Part shown: positions 9,378 to 36,947 of the stretch, in pieces
How the letters are laid out: every line of letters starts with the position of its first letter
Position numbering within the stretch: the first letter of the stretch is position 1
DNA from: Erwinia tracheiphila
GTDB taxonomy: Bacteria; Pseudomonadota; Gammaproteobacteria; Enterobacterales; Enterobacteriaceae
Direction of reading: 5' to 3'
DNA: 64,000 nucleotides
NCBI RefSeq assembly: GCF_021365465.1
Contig: NZ_CP089932.1
Location: 1,302,001-1,366,000, forward strand
Notes under the pieces: model-generated
What the model saw: the letters and a program-made list of their open reading frames with translations, nothing else
What the model was told of the DNA's origin: nothing
Database searches by the model: none
Translations under genes and position numbers: made by a program

Positions 9378-10246
9378 GCTTGCTGCTAACTGCGCCATTT
9401 GTTGAATTTGGCTTTATGCGCAGAGCGCTGGTGGCCTGTGTTGCACTGTCGCTTAGTGCAACTCCCTTGGGGGTTTTCCTGCTATTACGCAGAATGAGCC
9501 TTGTCGGTGATGCGCTTTCTCATGCGGTTTTGCCGGGGGCGGCTATTGGTTATTTGATATCAGGGCTTTCGCTGGTGGCGATGGGGACGGGCGGCATTAT
9601 CGCAGGCCTGTCGGTTGCCTTACTTTCGGGAGCGGTCAGTCGTTTTACGCCACTGCGGGAAGACGCCAGCTTCGCGGCTTTTTACCTCGGCTCGCTGGCC
9701 CTGGGAGTTACGCTGGTTTCATTACGTGGTTCCAGCATCGATCTGCTCCATGTCCTTTTTGGGTCGCTTCTGGCTGTTGATAACCCATCCATTATCCTGG
9801 TCAGCGGCGTTGCTTCCTTCACTCTGTTAGCATTGGCATTAATTTACCGTCCTTTAGTTATCGATGCTTTCGACCCCGCTTTTTTGCATGCTCAGAGCCG
9901 TTGGGTCCCTCCGTTGGTTCACAGCATCTTCCTCATGCTGGTCGTCACTAATCTGGTTGCTGGCTTTCAGGTACTAGGTACCTTGATGTGTGTTGGATTA
10001 ATGATGTTACCTGCCGCTGCCGCGCGTTTCTGGTCTGTGAGATTACCTGGTATGATTTTTACAGCGATGCTCCTCGCGTTAATCGCCAGTTTCACCGGGT
10101 TGATTGCCTCCTGGTATTGTTCGTTACCCGCCGGACCAGCTGTAATACTCAACGCCGCCATATTGTTTTTTATTTCAATTTTAATTGGGCCATGCGGTGG
10201 AATCTTCCGCAAACGGCCTTTTTCTATTGGTAAGGAGAAAGCATGA
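9374..10246 (+). CDS. Zinc-type ABC transporter, membrane permease
   Basis: A 290-residue ABC-3 family integral membrane protein with about eight hydrophobic helices. The conserved metal-permease segments GDALSHAVLPGAAIGYL and VLGTLMCVGLMMLPAAAARF are clear. It starts inside the ATPase stop codon and its own stop overlaps the binding-protein start, giving a tightly coupled three-gene operon. Confidence 0.93.
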   Translation: MSLLLTAPFVEFGFMRRALVACVALSLSATPLGVFLLLRRMSLVGDALSHAVLPGAAIGYLISGLSLVAMGTGGIIAGLSVALLSGAVSRFTPLREDASFAAFYLGSLALGVTLVSLRGSSIDLLHVLFGSLLAVDNPSIILVSGVASFTLLALALIYRPLVIDAFDPAFLHAQSRWVPPLVHSIFLMLVVTNLVAGFQVLGTLMCVGLMMLPAAAARFWSVRLPGMIFTAMLLALIASFTGLIASWYCSLPAGPAVILNAAILFFISILIGPCGGIFRKRPFSIGKEKA

Positions 10247-11121
10247 AGATGTTACCCGTTACGCTAGCGGTTGCGGCGTTTTTTGTCTCCCCTTTTGTGC
10301 TGGCAAATACGGTCAATACGGTAGCCAGTTTTTCAGTTCTGGCTGATATAGTTAAAGAAGTTGGCGGCGAGCATGTGAAAGTGAAAAGCCTTGTCGGCTT
10401 CGACGGCGACCCGCATAGTTTCGAACCTACACCTCAGGACTCACAGGTCCTGCTAAAAGCGGATGCGGTTTTTGTCAGCGGGCTGGGTATGGAGGGCTGG
10501 ATGGATCGTTTGATTTCTGCTTCCGGATACAAGGGTAAAGTGATTGTTGCATCTCAAGGGATCACAACCCGAACGATGGAAGACGAGGGTAGAATTGTTA
10601 CCGATCCACACGCATGGAACAGCATGAAAAATGGTGAGGTATACGCAACAAATGTGATGAATGCACTTATTGCTATCGACCCCGAAGATGCAGATTATTT
10701 TCGGCAGCGCGGTTTGGCCTATATCACTGAATTACAGAAGCTTGATGACTGGGCGAAAACGGAATTCGCCGCAGTGCCTGCAGAAAAACGTAAAGTGTTA
10801 ACCAGCCATGATGCTTTTGGTTATTTTGGTCAACGTTATGGTGTAAGTTTCTTATCGCCTGCCGGTTTTTCTACTGAATCAGAAGCAAGCGCTTCAGATG
10901 TTGCTGGCTTAATCACCCAGCTGAAAAAAGAACATATTCACAGCTATTTTATTGAGAACCAGACCGATCCTCGCTTGGTGAAACAGATCGCGTCTGCCAC
11001 GGGGGCTAAACCCGGCGGGGAGTTATACCCCGAAGCATTAACTAAAAAAGATGGTATGGCGAACAGTTATATTGCAGCGTTCAGGCACAACGTCAATGCC
11101 ATGGTTGAGAGCATGAAATAA
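10243..11121 (+). CDS. Zinc-type ABC transporter, periplasmic metal-binding protein
   Basis: A 292-residue cluster A-I solute-binding protein with a signal peptide ending FVLA-NTVNTV. Metal-ligand motifs are GDPHSFEPTPQD, the second histidine in TDPHAWNS, a third in TSHDAFGYF and an acidic ligand near the C-terminus. The long histidine-rich loop of ZnuA is absent, as in AztC-like proteins. The gene closes the operon; the 177 bases after it contain no recognised gene before the insertion at 11306. Confidence 0.93.
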   Translation: MKMLPVTLAVAAFFVSPFVLANTVNTVASFSVLADIVKEVGGEHVKVKSLVGFDGDPHSFEPTPQDSQVLLKADAVFVSGLGMEGWMDRLISASGYKGKVIVASQGITTRTMEDEGRIVTDPHAWNSMKNGEVYATNVMNALIAIDPEDADYFRQRGLAYITELQKLDDWAKTEFAAVPAEKRKVLTSHDAFGYFGQRYGVSFLSPAGFSTESEASASDVAGLITQLKKEHIHSYFIENQTDPRLVKQIASATGAKPGGELYPEALTKKDGMANSYIAAFRHNVNAMVESMK

Positions 11122-11298
11122 GTCAGCAGGACAGGGAAGCCCTTTTTAGTGGCTCTGAACAGAGCACAACGGTAGTCAGCTGTTGAAAGATAGTAATGAG
11201 AAATGTGCAGGAATGGTGTTGTAATTGCGAGCGATGGCAAAATACTGTCCTTTACAATTTATGAATTACAACAGCTGGCGTATCAGGCCATCGGCTCG

Positions 11299-11305
11299 TT
11301 TAAGG
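11299..11305 (+). repeat. Target-site duplication, left copy (TTTAAGG)
   Basis: TTTAAGG abuts the outer left inverted repeat at 11306; the identical heptamer at 15516-15522 abuts the outer right end. A 7-bp duplication is also seen for the third copy of this IS type at 35759-35765 and 36948-36954 (GATAAAC), which supports the length. Confidence 0.85.
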
Positions 11306-12505
11306 TGTATTAGCTCAGACCTGATCTGACCGTTACCGGTTATTTATACAGGTGTCTGTCAGATTATATCTGGCTTAAATTCTTCTCAGCCCGGATAGGT
11401 TTTCCATCAAGTAACGTTTCCATTGGCGTCCGCCCACAGCACATTTTTCCCTGATGGTTCGCTCATTATTATAGTGGGCCAGCCATTCATCAAGATCCGA
11501 TTGTCGTGTGGCGATATCGCCATACAGTTTTTTGCGGAACGCCACCTGATAAAACGCCTGCAATATCGTTCTGTGAAAGCGCTCACAGATACCATTGGTC
11601 TGCGGAGACATCGTTTTGGTTTTTGTATGCTCAATATCATTTATCGCCAGATAAAGCTGATAGTCATGCTGTTCCACCTTGCCACAGTACTCCGTGCCTC
11701 TGTCTGTCAGTATCCTCAGTACTGGCAGGCCCTGCGACTCGTAAAACGGTAACACGCGATCGTTCAGCAGGTCAGCCGCAGTAATCGGCGTTTTGGTGAC
11801 ATACAGCTTGCAGTGAGCGACCTTTGAATATGTATCCACGAACGTTTGCTGATAAATACGACCGGCTCCTTTCAGGTTGCCCACGTAGAACGTGTCCTGT
11901 GAACCCGGATAGCCGGGATGAGCCGTTTCAATTTCGCCACAGACGTCGTCATCACTGGCCTTACGTTACAATGCCACTATCTGGCTGTCGCTCAGTTCGA
12001 TACCCTTACGGGCCACTTTTTCTTCCAGCGATTTCAGGCGTTTTTTGAAGTTCTCAAGGTTATGGCGCAACCAGACAGAACGGACAGCACTTCCTGAGAT
12101 AAAAACGCCCTGTTTACGTAATTCATTACTGCTCCGGTGCTGGCCATGGGCGGGAAAAGCAACGGCATAATCAACAACAGCCTGCTCAGTGGCATCATCG
12201 GTGCAATTCTTAAGGTCAGTGACGCGGCGACTGCGATTTATCAGCGCATCCACGCCGCCATTATCGACCAGTTCGCGATAGCGGTAAAAGGTCTCGCGTG
12301 AGACGCCCATGATTTTACAGGCTTTCGACACGTTACTGAGTTCTTCAGCCAGATTGAGCAAACCGGCTTTGTGTTTAATGACGGGATTGGTAGAATGAAA
12401 CATGAGAGTGACCTTGTGTTTTGTATAAGGCTTCGACACCCATATCAAAATCGGTAACTCTCAACTTTTCAAGGTCATGTGTCAGATTAAGTCGCGACTA
12501 ACACA
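11306..12505 (-). mobile_element. IS481-family insertion sequence, left copy
   Basis: 1200 bp with imperfect terminal inverted repeats: TGTATTAG...GAC...ATCTGAC at the left end and, read from the right end, TGTGTTAG...GAC...ATCTGAC. It is about 99% identical to 14316-15515 (roughly nine substitutions and two compensating one-base indels by eye). One transposase frame, leftward, is interrupted. Confidence 0.9.
11364..12403 (-). pseudogene. IS481-family transposase, left copy (nonsense plus frameshift)
   Basis: The frame begins MFHSTNPVIKHKAGLLNLAE with the helix-turn-helix SKACKIMGVSRETFYRYRE, then stops at TAA 11968-11966 after SQIVAL where the family has Glu. The same frame continues with the DDE catalytic core (QTFVDTYSKVAH, LTDRGTEYC, NGICERFH). 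Near 11449-11459 one base of a CCC run is missing, so NNERT is followed by IREKCAVGG in place of the expected HQGKMCCGR, and the end is out of frame. The right copy carries the identical TAA. Confidence 0.88.
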
Positions 12506-12567
12506 CACCCTCAACAAAAAAAGAACGACCTCGAGTTAATAAAAAAAGTCATAGCTACCAAATAGCA

Positions 12568-12593
12568 AACGGGAGTGGTTCTCCACTCCCGTT
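12568..12593 (+). terminator. Strong hairpin, possible terminator
   Basis: An 11-bp perfect stem AACGGGAGTGG/CCACTCCCGTT with a four-base loop. The plus-strand side is followed by a T-rich run (ACAATTTCATTTATTTTTT), so it would end rightward transcripts. Confidence 0.65.
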
Positions 12594-12715
12594 ACAATTT
12601 CATTTATTTTTTGATTCTTTTAAAACCTCAACCATCCGGTCAGGCATCATAGGGGTTTATGGAGCAGTGGAATCCAAAAGATAGTTAAAAGGTTAAATTG
12701 AGTGGTCAATAACTT

Positions 12716-12853
12716 TTAAATCAATCTGTTGCGGTTAATGGCTTTTTTTGCTCTAAAAATAGCCAGCATGAGTACAGCCAACTTAGCTACCATAATTGAG
12801 ATAGCCAAGAGCACAAATTCACGATGTAAATTGGCTGGTTTATTTTTGGCCAC
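12716..12853 (-). CDS. Possible 45-residue membrane peptide
   Basis: A GTG-started frame, MAKNKPANLHREFVLLAISI followed by a second hydrophobic stretch (VAKLAVLMLAIF) and a basic tail KKAINRNRLI. It has the shape of a single-span membrane peptide. There is no good ribosome-binding site and I recognise no family, so it may be chance. Confidence 0.25.
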   Translation of the reverse strand: MAKNKPANLHREFVLLAISIMVAKLAVLMLAIFRAKKAINRNRLI

Positions 12854-13042
12854 TTAAAATGGCTGCTTAACGGCGGTTACTGTTCCACTGAGCCTCAAAC
12901 CCCTAATACCCCAAGAGAAGCAATATCATCATACGGATATCTAACCACTAAATAACATTGGTGAAAGGCATAAAATTGACATTTTCACTTTGGAACATTG
13001 GATCACATTTCAAACTTACATTAGCATGAACTGCGGTCAGGC

Positions 13043-13063
13043 AGAGGGCAAAATCAGCCCTCT
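13043..13063 (-). terminator. Hairpin downstream of the immunity-like gene
   Basis: AGAGGGC/GCCCTCT, a 7-bp stem with a 7-base loop, 49 bases past the stop of the leftward immunity-like gene. It is a plausible terminator of the toxin-immunity transcript. Confidence 0.5.
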
Positions 13064-13111
13064 TTCGTGGTCAGGCACAGAGCGAGCAGGCCGCTCTGGC
13101 TTTTAGCTGTT

Positions 13112-13546
13112 TCATTCAGGCCAGTTAATCATCTCGTCGAGGCCGGACAGTAACGCCGGAAAGTAGCTCTGGTCAATGTAAAATGTGTCCGTTACTTTGA
13201 TGCTTTCTGCATGATCTTCTGGTCTCAAGACCAAATTAACTTCGACATGCTCTGAGTGAATTTTAATGAAAGAAATATTCATCCTGTTTTCCAGACTATC
13301 AAAATTTACAGTAAATGATTCATTTACAGAAACTATGCTTTGATAGATATTTTCAACTCCATTTTTTAATTGTGAAAGTTCATAAACCGTAAATGCTGTT
13401 TTAAATTCCGTTTTCAATTCAGGCACACTAAATTCAATCCATGCGTTTATCCAGTCATCATTATCTGGATTACACTCTCTTTCATAAGGAGTAACTTTTA
13501 GCTGTCTGTTTCCACAAATAATTTCGATCATAGTAATCTTTTTCAT
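13112..13546 (-). CDS. Putative immunity protein of a polymorphic toxin (WapI-like)
   Basis: A 144-residue acidic cytosolic protein with no signal peptide. The pattern DDWINAWIEFSVPELKTEFKTAF followed by a long helix and strands resembles small WapI-type immunity proteins; this is recollection and not a search result. Its ATG (13546-13544) overlaps the TGA that the upstream toxin-like gene would use in its restored frame (ATGA), the usual coupling of toxin and immunity genes. The frame is intact, so protection may outlive the toxin. Confidence 0.6.
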   Translation of the reverse strand: MKKITMIEIICGNRQLKVTPYERECNPDNDDWINAWIEFSVPELKTEFKTAFTVYELSQLKNGVENIYQSIVSVNESFTVNFDSLENRMNISFIKIHSEHVEVNLVLRPEDHAESIKVTDTFYIDQSYFPALLSGLDEMINWPE

Positions 13547-14213
13547 TTATATAAAAAATGGCTAACTGTCCAGTCTTTTTCTCTGACAACGACTTCCAAC
13601 ATGTATTTTTTGTAGATATATGTTTTTTTGCCTTGTCTTCTATAAGTCTGTATATATCTGTTTCATAACGAAAATAACCCGGTTTTTTTTGGGGATCAGG
13701 CATTCGTTTGCCATAGTGAATAGCTTTCTCCTGAAGCTGCAAAGGCACATAGCGCCCGGAGTTATACATATGTTTCGCAGCGGTTTCTGTCATTTTTAGT
13801 TTACGAGCTGACAGACCAACTTTTAACCGACTTCTTAAAAAACTGACCGTTCCCTGACTGAGCTTTACCGTGAGAGCCGTTCTGACTCCGCTTTGCAGTA
13901 GCGCCCTGCCAGCTAAGAAGATGCGGAAAATACCGGCCGCAAGTAACGCAATATCGGTTGGATCAATCAGCGGTGATTCCAGCGGAGCTTCTTCCAGTGT
14001 GACAAAAGTTCCATCGGTGTCATAAATTCGCCAAAGACCAAGGGCTTGTGAAACGGAATAACCGATACACATCCCGCTTTCGTCATCGGTTATGGGTTTG
14101 GCATTGTGGGGTAAAAGTAGCGGACGGATTTCAAAAAATTCCCCCTGGGGCAATGGGGAATGAAATATGTAATATCGACCGGGTTCTTCTGTGGTTGCAA
14201 ATCCTGTTGCCAT
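13543..14213 (-). pseudogene. Toxin-like effector gene, frameshifted at a run of seven A
   Basis: From ATG 14213 (ribosome-binding site AAGGGAA) the frame encodes an N-terminal domain (about 1-150, with a hydrophobic segment DIALLAAGIFRIFLAGRALL) and a C-terminal domain starting TETAAKHMYNSGRYVPLQLQ and YGKRMPDPQKKPGYFRYE, typical of small RNase-like polymorphic-toxin tails. At 13629-13623 seven A (minus strand) put the frame out by one and the ORF runs on to 13482. With one more A the frame reads LEVVVREKDWTVSHFLYK and stops at TGA 13545-13543, exactly overlapping the immunity ATG. No secretion signal is seen; delivery (type VI or other) and nuclease activity are inferences. Confidence 0.65.
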
Positions 14214-14315
14214 AAAATATTCCCTTGTGGTAAATCAGATCCAGAGAAATCATATAACACTTTCTTGAGTACTACATCAATAGTTGATGCAGGCCATCAG
14301 CTGGCTACTATTATG

Positions 14316-15515
14316 TGTATTAGCTCAGACCTGATCTGACCGTTACCGGTTATTTATACAGGTGTCTGTCAGATTATATCTGGCTTAAATTCTTCTCAGC
14401 CCGGATAGGTTTTCCATCAAGTAACGTTTCCATTGGCGTCCGCCCACAGCACATTTTCCCTGATGGGTTCGCTCATTATTATAGTGAGCCAGCCATTCAT
14501 CAAGATCCGATTGTCGTGTGGCGATATCGCCATACAGTTTTTTGCGGAACGTCACCTGATAAAACGCCTGCAATATCGTTCTGTGAAAGCGCTCACAGAT
14601 ACCATTGGTCTGCGGAGACATCGTTTTGGTTTTTGTATGCTCAATATCATTTATCGCCAGATAAAGCTGATAGTCATGCTGTTCCACCTTGCCACAGTAC
14701 TCTGTGCCTCTGTCTGTCAGTATCCTCAGTACTGGCAGGCCCTGCGACTCGTAAAACGGTAACACGCGATCGTTCAGCAGGTCAGCCGTAGTAATCGGCG
14801 TTTTGGCGACATACAGCTTGCAGTGAGCGACCTTTGAATATGTATCCACGAACGTTTGCTGATAAATACGACCGGCTCCTTTCAGGTTGCCCACGTAGAA
14901 CGTGTCCTGTGAACCCGGATAGCCGGGATGAGCCGTTTCAATTTCGCCACAGACGTCGTCATCACTGGCCTTACGTTACAATGCCACTATCTGGCTGTCG
15001 CTCAGTTCGATACCCTTACGGGCCACTTTTTCTTCCAGCGATTTCAGGCGTTTTTTGAAGTTCTCAAGGTTATGGCGCAACCAGACAGAACGGACAGCAC
15101 TTCCTGAGATAAAAACGCCCTGTTTACGTAATTCATTACTGCTCCGGTGCTGGCCATGGGCGGGAAAAGCAACGGCATAATCAACAACAGCCTGCTCAGT
15201 GGCATCATCGGTGCAATTCTTAAGGTCAGGGACGCGGCGACTGCAATTTATCAGCGCATCCACGCCGCCATTATCGGCCAGTTCGCGATAGCGGTAAAAG
15301 GTCTCGCGTGAGACGCCCATGATTTTACAGGCTTTCGACACGTTACTGAGTTCTTCAGCCAGATTGAGCAAACCGGCTTTGTGTTTAATGACGGGATTGG
15401 TAGAATGAAACATGAGAGTGACCTTGTGTTTTGTATAAGGCTTCGACACCCATATCAAAATCGGTAACTCTCAACTTTTCAAGGTCATGTGTCAGATTAA
15501 GTCGCGACTAATACA
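14316..15515 (-). mobile_element. IS481-family insertion sequence, right copy
   Basis: 1200 bp, same orientation and about 99% identical to 11306-12505. Both ends start TGTATTAG. Its outer right end is followed by TTTAAGG. It forms the right arm of the composite transposon. Confidence 0.9.
14374..15413 (-). pseudogene. IS481-family transposase, right copy (nonsense plus frameshift)
   Basis: Same layout as the left copy, including the identical in-frame TAA at 14978-14976 after SQIVAL. Here HQG is intact but one A is missing from the following A-run, giving GKCAVGG for the expected GKMCCGR; so this copy has its own C-terminal frameshift, a few bases from that of the left copy. The catalytic Asp, Asp and Glu motifs are all present. 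Confidence 0.88.
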
Positions 15516-15522
15516 TTTAAGG
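15516..15522 (+). repeat. Target-site duplication, right copy (TTTAAGG)
   Basis: Matches 11299-11305 exactly and marks the right border of the composite transposon, 14 bases before the rpmJ2 stop codon. Confidence 0.85.
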
Positions 15523-15536
15523 AAATATCATTTCTG

Positions 15537-15680
15537 TTATCGTTTCTTTTTCTTTCTTCCCTGTACCGCTTTGAAGCGTGGGTTGCTTTTGCAAATAACG
15601 TATATGCGGCCATGCCGACGCACCACTTTACAATCTTTATGGCGTTTTTTGGCTGATGCTAATGAGCTAAGAACCTGCAT
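15537..15680 (-). CDS. rpmJ2: Ribosomal protein L36 paralogue without zinc site (RpmJ2/YkgO)
   Basis: A 47-residue protein: [20 protein letters not shown], then [23 protein letters not shown] and a basic end. It lacks the full Cys/His zinc knuckle of the standard L36, so it can replace the zinc-binding form and spare zinc. It lies 12 bases after rpmE2 and shares its Zur box. Confidence 0.93.
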
Positions 15681-15692
15681 AATATCGTCTCC

Positions 15693-15950
15693 TTATTTTG
15701 CGCCAGAGAAAAAGCGACCAAAGCGCTGATTGAAACGGCGAGCGCTACCTTCTTTTGCAAATTCTTTTTGCTTACCGGTGTAGTAGGGATGCGAAGCGGA
15801 GGATACATCCAGTGTTACATAAGATAATATTTTTCCATTGAGCTCTACCGTCCGTTCAGTTCTGACAGTGGGACCAACAATAAAATAAGTATCAACACTG
15901 GTGTCGTGAAATGCCACGATGCGGTAATCAGGATGAATGTCTTCTTTCAT
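15693..15950 (-). CDS. rpmE2: Ribosomal protein L31 paralogue without zinc site (RpmE2/YkgM)
   Basis: An 85-residue type-B L31 ([44 protein letters not shown]). It lacks the CxxC zinc ligands of the A form. Under zinc starvation it replaces the zinc-containing L31 on ribosomes. The start has AGAAGAA upstream and the gene is preceded by a perfect Zur box. Confidence 0.95.
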
Positions 15951-15971
15951 AATTCTTCTCTTGAATTGAAA

Positions 15972-15986
15972 TGTTATAACATAACA
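15972..15986 (-). promoter_or_regulatory. Zur box upstream of rpmE2-rpmJ2
   Basis: TGTTAT-AAC-ATAACA, the exact reverse complement of the box at 8536-8550. It lies 22 bases upstream of the rpmE2 ATG, so it overlaps the likely promoter. Confidence 0.9.
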
Positions 15987-16069
15987 ATATTATGCGTTCT
16001 GAAAAAATAGATTGCAACCAAAAAAGGGAGTGACAGAAACTGAATCTGTCAGGCAGGTCTTCAAAGAAG

Positions 16070-16095
16070 AAAGGGGCTGTATGAGCAGCCCCTTT
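16070..16095 (-). terminator. Terminator of acrAB
   Basis: AAAGGGGCTG/CAGCCCCTTT, a 10-bp stem with a 6-base loop. Read leftward it is followed by the T-rich CTTCTTTG. It lies 57 bases past the acrB stop. Confidence 0.8.
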
Positions 16096-16151
16096 GATAT
16101 TTATTTACAGCCAGGTATCAGGGATGTTCTGGCAGATGGGCATGCTTCAAT

Positions 16152-19100
16152 TCATCCTTTGTTCTTGCCAAAGCGTCTGCGTACCACTACAAAAAATACC
16201 GGGACAAAGAAAATTGCCAGTACCGTCGCGGTAACCATGCCGCCCATGACACCTGTTCCCACCGCGTTTTGCGCACCGGAACCTGCGCCTGTACTGATAG
16301 TCAGCGGAAGCACGCCAAGAATGAAAGCAAGTGAGGTCATCAGAATCGGGCGTAAACGCATACGCACCGCTTCAAGGGTTGATTCCACAAGGCCTTTACC
16401 TTCTTTCTCCATAAGATCCTTGGCGAATTCCACGATCAGGATGGCATTCTTTGCTGACAACCCAATAGTTGTCAGCAGGCCAACAACAAAGTAGACGTCA
16501 TTGCTCAACCCACGAAGAGTGGTGAAGATAAGCGCCCCGATAACCCCCAGGGGGACAACAAGCATTACCGCAAAGGGAATTGACCAGCTTTCGTACAGCG
16601 CGGCCAGGCAAAGAAACACCACAATCAATGAGATCGCATACAGTGCCGGCGCCTGATTACCGGACAGACGTTCCTGATAAGACATCCCCGTCCAGTCATA
16701 GCCAATCCCTTGCGGTAATTTGGATGCCAGTTGTTCCATTAGCGCCATCGCTTCACCGGAGCTTTTGCCAGGTGCAGCCTGGCCAAGCAGTTCCATCGAT
16801 GGCAGGCCGTTGTAACGTTCCAGACGAGGTGAGCCGTATTGCCATTTAGCCGAAGCAAACGCGGAGAATGGCACCATTTGACCCGACGAACCGCGTACAA
16901 ACCACTTATCAATGTCGTTTGGCAGCATACGTGAATCGGCCGTACCCATCACATACACTTTCTTCACACGACCACGATCGATGAAGTCATTGACGTAGGA
17001 ACCGCCCCAGGCAGCGCCAAGCGTGGTATTGATGTCAGAAATTGATACGCCAAGTGCTTCTGCTTTCTCCTGATCAATGGCCAATTTGTACTGTGGAGTA
17101 TCCTCCAGGCCATTTGGCCTGACGCCCACCAGCGTATCGGGATGTTGAGCGATCATACCAAAAAGCTGATTACGTGCCTGAGTCAAGGCATCATGGCCTA
17201 AGTTAGCCTGGTCAATAAGCTGAAAGTCAAAACCCGTGGCATTGCCCAGCTCAATAATGGCAGGCAGGTTGAAGGGAATGACCATACCGTCTTTAATGGC
17301 ACCAAATGCTCTCATGGCGCGACCTGCAATACCGTCAACTTTATTGGCTGCACCGCTACGCTCACTCCATGGCTTGAGGCTGACAAAGGCAATTCCCGTA
17401 TTTTGACCACGACCGGCAAAACCAAAGCCATTCACGGTAAAAACTGACTTCACATTGTCTTTTTCATTTGTCAGGAAGTAATCGGTGACCTTGTTCAACA
17501 CAGCCTGAGTGCGCTCCTGTGTTGCACCCGCAGGTAACTGAGCCTGTGCCAGTAGCAGCCCTTGATCCTCTTCTGGCAGGAAGGCTGAAGGCAATTTTAT
17601 AAACAGCCATGCCATGCCCAGCACTATCACCAGATAGATCACCAGATAGCGGCCAGTGCTGCGAATAATATGGTCTACGCTGTCAGTATAGTGATGAGTG
17701 CTCTTGTCAAACATGCGGTTAAACCATCCGAAGAAGCCGGTCGTTTTGCCATGTTCACCTTTGCTGATTGGCTTAAGCATGGTGGCGCAGAGCGCAGGCG
17801 TGAGGATCATGGCCACAACCACGGACAATACCATCGCGGAGACGATGGTAATGGAGAACTGGCGATAAATAACCCCAGTAGACCCCCCGAAGAAAGCCAT
17901 CGGAATAAATACGGCAGAAAGTACCAAAGCGATACCCACCAGCGCACCTTGTATTTGTTCCATCGACTTGCGAGTGGCTTCTTTTGGCGGCAGACCTTCC
18001 TCAGCCATTACGCGCTCAACGTTTTCCACCACCACAATTGCATCATCAACCAATAATCCTATTGCCAACACCATGCCGAACATTGTCAGCGTATTTATCG
18101 AATAGCCAAAGGCACTGATAATGGCGAACGTCCCAAGCAGCACAACGGGCACCGCTATTGTGGGGATAAGGGTGGCACGAAAATTTTGCAAAAAGAGGTA
18201 CATAACGATAAACACCAGCACGATTGCCTCGAGCAGGGTTTTCACCACTTCCATAATTGAAATTTTAACAAATGGCGTGGTGTCGTAGGGATAAACAACC
18301 TTAAGGCCCGATGGAAAGAACGGCTCAAGTTTGGCCAGCTGTGCCTTTACCGCATCCGCAGTATCCAGCGCGTTGGCACCTGTTGCCAGTTTAATACCAA
18401 TACCGGAAGCAGGTTTGCCGTTGTATCGTGCAATGACCTCGTAGTTCTCACCTCCCAGCTCAATTTTTGCAATATCTTTCAGCAGAACTCGCGAACCATC
18501 AGCGTTAACTTTAAGCAGGATTTTGCCGAATTCATCGGTCGACGTCAGACGGGTTTGAGCAATAATTGACGCGTTTAACTGCTGGCCAGGAACCGGGGGA
18601 GAGCCACCCAACTGACCTGCGGCAACCTGTGAATTTTGTGCGGTAATCGCACTAATGACATCAATGGGCGTCAGCTGGTAGTTATTGAGCTTGTGCGGAT
18701 CCATCCAGATGCGCATCGCGTATTGAGCACCAAATATTTGGGTATCGCCCACGCCAGGTGTTCGGCTGATAGCATCTTTAATATTCGACGCCACATAGTC
18801 AGCGATATCATTTTGCGTCATGCTGTCACTGTCGCTGACAAAGCCTGCCACCATCAGAAAACTGCTGGAGGACTTTTGAACGTTTATGCCTTGCTGTTGA
18901 ACTTCCTGTGGCAGTAACGGCGTGGCCAGCTGCAGTTTATTCTGCACCTGAACCTGAGCAATGTCCGGGTCCGTACCTGACTGGAAAGTCAGCGTAAGTT
19001 GTAATGTACCGGATGAGTCACTGTTAGATGACATATACATCAGGCCATCAATGCCGTTCATATTTTGCTCAATAACCTGCGTGACTGAATCCTGTAATGT

Positions 19101-35765: not shown

Positions 35766-36947
35766 TGTATTCGTCGCGACGTAATCTGACAGCGGACCCT
35801 GAAAGATTGAGGGTTACCGGTTTTGATATGGGTGTCGAATCCTTAAACAAAACGCGAGGTCACCCTCATGCTCCATACTCACAATTCCATCATCAAACAC
35901 AAAGCCGGCCTGCTCAATCTCGCCGAATAACCCGGTAACGTCTCAACAGCCTGCAAGAGCACGGGCGTGTCACGCGACACCTTCTACCGTTATCAGGAAC
36001 TGGCTGCTGAAGGCGGCATTGACGCGCTGGTTAACCAGAACCGCCGGGGTCCCAACCTGACGAACCGCGCCGACGAAGCCACTGAACGCGCGGTTGTTGA
36101 ATATGCCGTTGAGTTCCCGGCCCCCGGGCAGCACCGGACCAGTGATGAGCTGCGTAAAAAAGGCGTGTTTACCTCCGGCAGCGGCGTGCGCGCCATCTGG
36201 CAACGACACGATCTGGAGAACTTCCGTAAACGCCTGAAGGCGCCTGAGGAAAAGCTCGCCAGAGAAGCCATCGTGCTTACCGGTGCCCCAATCGCCGCGC
36301 TGGAGAAAAAGGCGCATGATGATGAGGCCAGCGGCGAAATCGAGACGGCTCATCCGGGTTATCCCGGGTCGCAGGACACCTTCTGTGCTGGCGATCTGAA
36401 CGGTGTGGGCCGTATCTACCCGCAGACGTTCGTGGATACGTACCCGAAAATGGCGCACTGCAAGCGGTATACGAGTAAAACGCCGAACACTGCCGCCGAC
36501 TGCCGTTCTGTGAGGCTCAGGGGCTGCCGGTGCTGAGAAGACTGACCGACAGGGGAACGGAGTACTGTGGTAAGGTGGAGCCGCATGATTACCAGCTTTA
36601 TCTGGCCATCAACGATATCGCCCATACGAAAACGAAGGCGATGTCCCCACAGACCAACGGCATCGGTGAGCGCTTCCATAAAACGATTTTGCAGGATTTT
36701 TATCAGGTCACGTTCCGCAAGAAGTCATATGGGGAGCTGGAGAGCCTGCAAACGGATCCGGACAACGGGTTGTGGCATGACAATAATGAGCGGGCTCATC
36801 AGGGGAAAATGTGCTTCGGGCGAACGCCAGTGTCCACGTTACCTGATGGAAAACGGGTCCGGGCAGAAAAGAATCTGAACCGGATGTAATCCGACAGGCA
36901 CCTGTATAAATAACCGGTAATGGTCAGAACAGGTCTGAGCGGGTACA
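35766..36947 (+). mobile_element. IS481-family insertion sequence, third copy (degenerate)
   Basis: About 1182 bp, related to but clearly diverged from the two copies at 11-15 kb, and in the opposite orientation. The ends start TGTATTCGTCGCGAC and, from the right, TGTACCCGCTCAGAC. A 7-bp direct repeat GATAAAC flanks it (35759-35765 and 36948-36954). It sits between the adk stop and the original adk terminator. Confidence 0.88.
35868..36889 (+). pseudogene. IS481-family transposase, third copy (multiple lesions)
   Basis: The start MLHTHNSIIKHKAGLLNLAE is stopped at once by TAA where the family has Glu. The HTH (KSTGVSRDTFYRYQE) and first half run to about 36500, where a deletion removes the LLNDRV region and shifts the frame. 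The last part (LTDRGTEYCGKVEPHDYQLY to GKMCFGRTP) is in another frame and keeps the correct C-terminus. Confidence 0.85.

Follow-up and report, generated by a model that had tools for sequence, protein, structure and literature searches.

Within a 64,000-nucleotide stretch of the Erwinia tracheiphila genome (contig NZ_CP089932.1, positions 1,302,001–1,366,000; hereafter the window), two copies of an insertion sequence (IS) of the IS481 family flank a toxin-like gene and an immunity-like gene. We consider it reasonably probable that this 4.2-kb composite IS481-type unit (11299–15522) inserted as one between a znuA-like gene and rpmJ2, duplicating the 7-bp sequence TTTAAGG. Insertion as a unit is supported because the outer repeats are of the right kind, the site is empty in all 11 of the congeners aligned, and relatives of the toxin region found in four congeners do not lie at this locus.

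Structure, target repeats and the empty site

The unit comprises two 1200-bp IS481-family copies in the same direction (11306–12505 and 14316–15515, both on the minus strand) around 1.8 kb of cargo. BLAST gives 99.1% identity between the copies, in line with the ∼99% of an initial annotation made from the sequence alone; 15 of the 1200 aligned columns are unlike, six of them inside one 8-column slip. The left copy begins TGTATTAG directly after TTTAAGG and ends CTAACACA directly before CACCCTC, and the right copy begins TGTATTAG after TATTATG and ends CTAATACA before TTTAAGG. Hence the outer flanks are the same 7 bp and the inner flanks are unlike, as the initial annotation had described. The outer repeats (11299–11305 and 15516–15522) abut the IS ends exactly. 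Each copy is complete, with both ends, which makes the arrangement one of two copies of a single IS around cargo, not one transposase plus cargo within a single pair of ends. The genome has a single junction of TTTAAGG with a window-type IS end, and it is on the forward strand.

Assignment to the IS481 family follows from both the transposase and the ends. In NCBIfam, each transposase half matches NF033577 best (profile positions 2–116 and 140–271 of 284, with 89.1 and 148.9 bits, each alone under the cut-off of 224 bits, the gene being split), and related copies are annotated as IS481 family transposases. Elements of this family have the ends 5'-TGT...ACA-3'. All 43 complete IS481 copies in the genome begin TGTA and finish TACA or CACA. 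This count is a lower bound, as it covers the best 40 of 140 candidates plus some copies from stretches fetched for other reasons; incomplete or end-damaged copies (1982106, 3850878, 2460055 and the third copy of the window) were excluded.

Perfect 7-bp direct repeats are found at 31 of the 43 complete copies. They follow the pattern NNTNANN: position 3 is T in 30 of 31 repeats, and position 5 is A in as many. When 7-mers are scored for this target preference, the real repeats range from 1.26 to 6.72, and both TTTAAGG (2.03) and TATTATG (4.85) fall within that range. Two 7-mers drawn from the repeat composition agree by chance with a probability of 0.0022. Among 10 pairs of neighboring IS481 copies less than 8 kb apart, only the window pair combines identical outer flanks with the lack of an own repeat at both copies. 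For the 12 complete copies lacking their own repeats, a comparison run on 42 copies gave two further end-to-end matches between distant copies, which are unexplained. The third IS481 copy of the window (35766–36947), 74% identical, has GATAAAC on both sides, in agreement with the 7-bp duplication noted for it initially. Elsewhere in the genome, two opposite IS481 copies lie 756 bp apart (207059–210215), with the flanks CTTTATC, CATAAAG, GATAAAG and CTTTATG.

The initial annotation had suggested a search of related genomes for the empty site. We compared one genome per species, so that the congeners here are other Erwinia species. Across 37 genomes of the genus (its own included), the left neighbor was matched in 33 and the right neighbor in 36. 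In 11 of the 11 congeners aligned, from 36 searched, the znuA-like gene is followed directly by the ribosomal genes, with no IS and no cargo; cargo at this locus lacking the IS copies, an arrangement named beforehand as counting against the composite reading, was thus seen in none of the 11. In some further congeners (e.g. G013, G014 and G028), matches to both neighbors lie ∼1.4 kb apart. DNA of the toxin region has matches in four congeners (G015, G016, G025 and G032), none of them at this locus. In the first three, the znuA-like gene lies elsewhere than these matches; in G032, where no znuA-like gene was matched, the cassettes and the ribosomal-gene match are on different contigs. The outer target repeat is a single TTTAAGG pair around a site that is empty in the 11 aligned congeners.

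On the left, the unit is bordered by the znuA-like gene, which encodes a zinc-binding protein (10243–11121, plus strand; PF01297). On the right lies the gene for type B ribosomal protein L31 (15693–15950, minus strand); between it and the unit is the short rpmJ2 (a name taken from the initial annotation), a conserved block in the congener alignment.

The cassette and its family

The cargo consists of ∼600 bp lacking any open reading frame (ORF) of at least 70 amino acids (12506–13111, beginning with CACCCTC), followed by two minus-strand genes, one WapI-like (13112–13546) and one toxin-like (13482–14213). A further stretch (14214–14315), upstream of the toxin-like gene, is common to paralogous cassettes up to 14312 and ends with TATTATG. 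An Rfam scan of 11000–16200 gave 0 matches at the gathering score, and in a promoter/terminator scan of the cargo the counts were close to those of shuffles. Part of the left inner stretch (12652–12904), which has no clear gene, is 81–82% identical to DNA of two other genomes (G036 and G067), and three more (G029, G030 and G001) match it over a shorter length.

The toxin-like ORF encodes 243 residues and stays on the family frame to about residue 198 (near position 13620), where it departs from it: family residues 1–198 and 173–224 are in different frames. The conserved C-terminal end, with V211, W216 and F221, is therefore lost and replaced, and the window product does not hold a complete C-terminal domain. 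Five loci of the toxin family are present in the genome, three of them open and two broken (the window locus and 2481631). Judged by its reading frame, the window toxin gene is probably inactive.

In a representative of the family (P0001), the C-terminal domain has an RNase-type BECR fold, as in the toxins BrnT, colicin E5 and RelE, the nearest solved structure being CdiA-CT of NC101. CdiA is a long secreted protein, and CdiA-CT forms its tip. An RNase toxin function of the family is putative. The label toxin-immunity-like, given to the pair at the outset, fits the family, with its RNase-type fold and WapI-like partner, but the window's own toxin copy is broken. We dropped the label polymorphic toxin, also given at the outset, since the C-terminal domain is conserved across 72 aligned relatives, which were picked by whole-length similarity. 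Pfam gave no match up to E = 1, and no MuF domain, for two intact paralogues or the window protein; P0001, P0026 and the immunity protein all lacked a match in PHROGs, and the family representative and the immunity protein lacked one in PADLOC as well. A sequence search of the PDB returned nothing useful, and a BFVD fold search nothing at E ≤ 0.001.

The immunity-like gene is open and encodes a 144-residue protein that matches PF24716, the profile of WapI-like immunity proteins, with 62.9 bits, against a cut-off of 27. When eight partner proteins from other loci were compared with the same profile, six scored above the cut-off, one reached 24.9 bits and one had no match. Still open, this putative immunity gene could protect against related toxins. 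One 368-residue protein (P0028) has the toxin-like and WapI-like parts joined in one frame, as either a natural fusion or a sequencing artefact.

Cassettes of the same two genes were found at 37 genome loci and 51 viral-contig loci, with varied neighbors, and the IS481 vehicle may therefore be incidental to the cassette. Homology between the window cassette and two paralogous cassettes ends at 14312, at the inner flank of the right IS. In this genome, two open paralogous cassettes (L049:6223–8233 and L051:12248–14388) each follow, at a distance of ∼340 bp, what remains of a filamentous-phage pIV secretin gene, and the cassette may have traveled with such a phage. No IS481 copy was found beside the cassettes at the 88 loci, many of which are cut by contig ends. 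INPHARED phage records held no match to the toxin family, and three plasmid records did match it.

On one viral contig (L166:3673–7853), genes for a tail sheath and for tail fiber assembly flank the cassette, a place at which P2-type phages carry accessory genes. In an uncultured Erwinia (L063:9310–11548), it follows an FlhB/SctU-family gene, itself split in two frames, within what we take to be a type III secretion cluster. In another genus (G108), ∼80 bp separate a cassette from what is left of an IS of the same subgroup, 109 bp of its left end (L233:8038–8146; 94% identical).

The cassette family is the less expected part of the finding. We tentatively propose, as an idea more open to doubt than the insertion of the unit, that the cargo is an undescribed free-standing cassette and that the cassette itself is the unit of spread across unlike vehicles. 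Its toxin gene would encode a 224-residue protein in which a conserved N-terminal half precedes a putative RNase domain like that of CdiA-CT(NC101), and the neighboring gene a WapI-like partner. The vehicles would range from tailed prophages and the remains of filamentous phages to a type III secretion-like locus and, in the window, a composite IS481 unit for which other copies would supply transposase in trans.

Origin of the unit

Under the favored reading, two copies of one already-broken IS would have come to flank the cassette at a donor site. The whole 4.2-kb unit, via the outer end of each copy, would then have inserted between the znuA-like gene and rpmJ2 in a single transposition, duplicating TTTAAGG. 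TATTATG, on the inner side of the right IS, looks like an original target repeat, and the CACCCTC junction would stem from deletion or rearrangement beside the left IS. Transposase would have been supplied in trans by an intact related IS481 copy.

Because the same in-frame stop interrupts the transposase gene of both window copies, which stays open over stretches of 196 and 164 codons, transposition would need a transposase in trans. Among the complete IS481 copies in the genome, 39 of 43 have an open frame of at least 340 codons, so a source in trans exists. A possible one is a subgroup of 36 complete copies; each has 99.75% or more identity to the first of them, and the subgroup is ∼79% identical to the window pair. 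These 36 copies occupy 36 places, a burst that looks recent. Five complete copies from other genera (85–88% identical) comprise three with 365 open codons and two broken ones. Since copies elsewhere are mostly open and the two window copies share the same stop, the stop is most likely older than the divergence of the two. The inner end of the left IS is altered, reading CTAACACA in place of the CTAATACA seen in 41 of the 43 complete copies, and this might favor use of the outer ends.

Several observations weigh against insertion of the unit as one. With the stop in both copies, the unit does not encode an intact transposase of its own. A second copy of the IS–cargo–IS unit, which the initial annotation had suggested seeking elsewhere, was not found in the same genome; in 392 genomes of the family (its own included, with the best two candidates per genome), only the window's own place spans an inner junction among the matches listed. 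Nor was a donor site carrying the unit found. Inspection of the inner junctions, likewise suggested at the outset, bore out only one of them as target-like: CACCCTC scores –4.87, far outside the range of the real repeats. Part of the unit's history therefore appears to be lost, the surroundings of the left IS having probably been deleted or rearranged. In addition, the pair of opposite copies at 207059/209015 lacks repeats of its own, and its outer flanks are alike in 6 of 7 bases (CTTTATC/CTTTATG), which counts against the uniqueness of the window pair. The four flanks of that pair match exactly those of an inversion of the intervening segment, and IS–IS recombination has very likely occurred in this genome.

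Such recombination is at the heart of another explanation, in which a single IS inserted first and made the TTTAAGG repeats, and a circle with one IS plus the cassette (an excised chromosomal segment, a phage or a plasmid) later integrated by RecA recombination between the IS copies. We regard this as possible though rather unlikely. It yields exactly the same structure; its second step would proceed without a working transposase, both copies holding the same stop; the atypical CACCCTC junction is no obstacle to it; and the flanks at 207059/209015, as expected where two copies recombine and invert the segment between them, speak for it too. However, it requires two events and an unseen circle, and no single IS between TTTAAGG repeats, the arrangement that the initial annotation had singled out as pointing to later duplication, was seen in the 11 aligned congeners, all of them other species. 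The initial claim that the unit moved as one is thus upheld as to insertion of a unit, given the right kind of outer repeat and the empty site; a single move is the simplest reading only, since recombination with a resident IS gives the same product.

The repeats also bear on whether two IS copies inserted independently around a cassette already resident, their outer flanks matching by chance. Although TATTATG at the right inner flank is target-like (4.85), as this scenario would allow, the probability of the outer match is ∼0.002, own repeats are absent from both copies, CACCCTC does not resemble a target, and the cassette is at this site in 0 of the 11 aligned congeners. We rejected independent double insertion on the repeat statistics, and consider it very improbable. 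Slightly less so, yet still improbable, is that the cassette came in a prophage or other element now gone, with the IS copies arriving or duplicating later and deletions shaping the junctions. Relatives of the cassette are common in viral contigs (51 loci) and twice in this genome lie ∼340 bp after a pIV secretin remnant, and the left inner stretch has no recognizable gene, all of which would suit a lost element. Against this, there is no ORF of at least 70 residues between the IS copies besides those of the cassette, and the outer repeats lie exactly at the IS ends. Insertion of the composite unit as one is accordingly the reading that we retain.

Comparison with known systems

The unit is a well-documented case of a toxin-immunity cassette, of a family often located near phage genes, that would have passed to IS-driven movement and then decayed, with the toxin gene broken and the immunity gene open. 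With the site empty in the aligned congeners, statistics on the repeats and one stop common to both transposase genes, transposition in trans versus recombination becomes a concrete question. No new class of mobile element is opened by the unit.

The comparisons that follow draw on excerpts of the cited papers. For the cassette, the nearest solved fold comes from the CdiA-CT/CdiI pair of E. coli NC101 (PDB 5I4Q, 5I4R), the immunity protein of which is listed as all-helical (PMC9086364). Unlike that pair, the window family combines a free-standing 224-residue protein and a WapI-like one. MuF polymorphic toxins are carried by temperate phages and are described for phages of Firmicutes (PMC5576092). 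Carriage by temperate phages is a point of likeness with the present family, in which, unlike MuF toxins, no Pfam domain was found.

For the vehicle, Ralstonia provides a parallel: clusters aux8 and aux12 of its type VI secretion system lie between copies of IS1021, and the authors suggest that they are composite transposons (PMC11481896). As here, toxin and immunity genes stand between copies of one IS; unlike those clusters, with their IS1021 and type VI secretion setting, the window has IS481, a two-gene cassette, a broken toxin gene and visible 7-bp outer repeats. TnRErm46 of Rhodococcus equi is an IS481-family transposon with passenger genes (PMC6794481). In both cases, an IS481-family transposase moves passengers and leaves short direct repeats, but TnRErm46 is a unit transposon with one internal transposase and a resistance gene, whereas the window unit has two full but broken IS copies around its cargo. 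A published table (PMC8304765) pairs IS5564 of Corynebacterium, an element of the IS481 family, with a named transposon, Tn5564, and with passenger genes; the listed cargo is resistance, unlike that of the window unit. In the part of the open-access literature covered, we found no IS481 composite unit with toxin-immunity cargo. Even so, the initial statement that such units are not a well-described vehicle was too strong in view of the IS1021 aux clusters and the IS481-family transposons. As far as these excerpts go, both halves of the idea, composite toxin-immunity units and IS481 transposons, are in print, and the unit adds a new case to a kind of event already known, a small step from the systems compared here.

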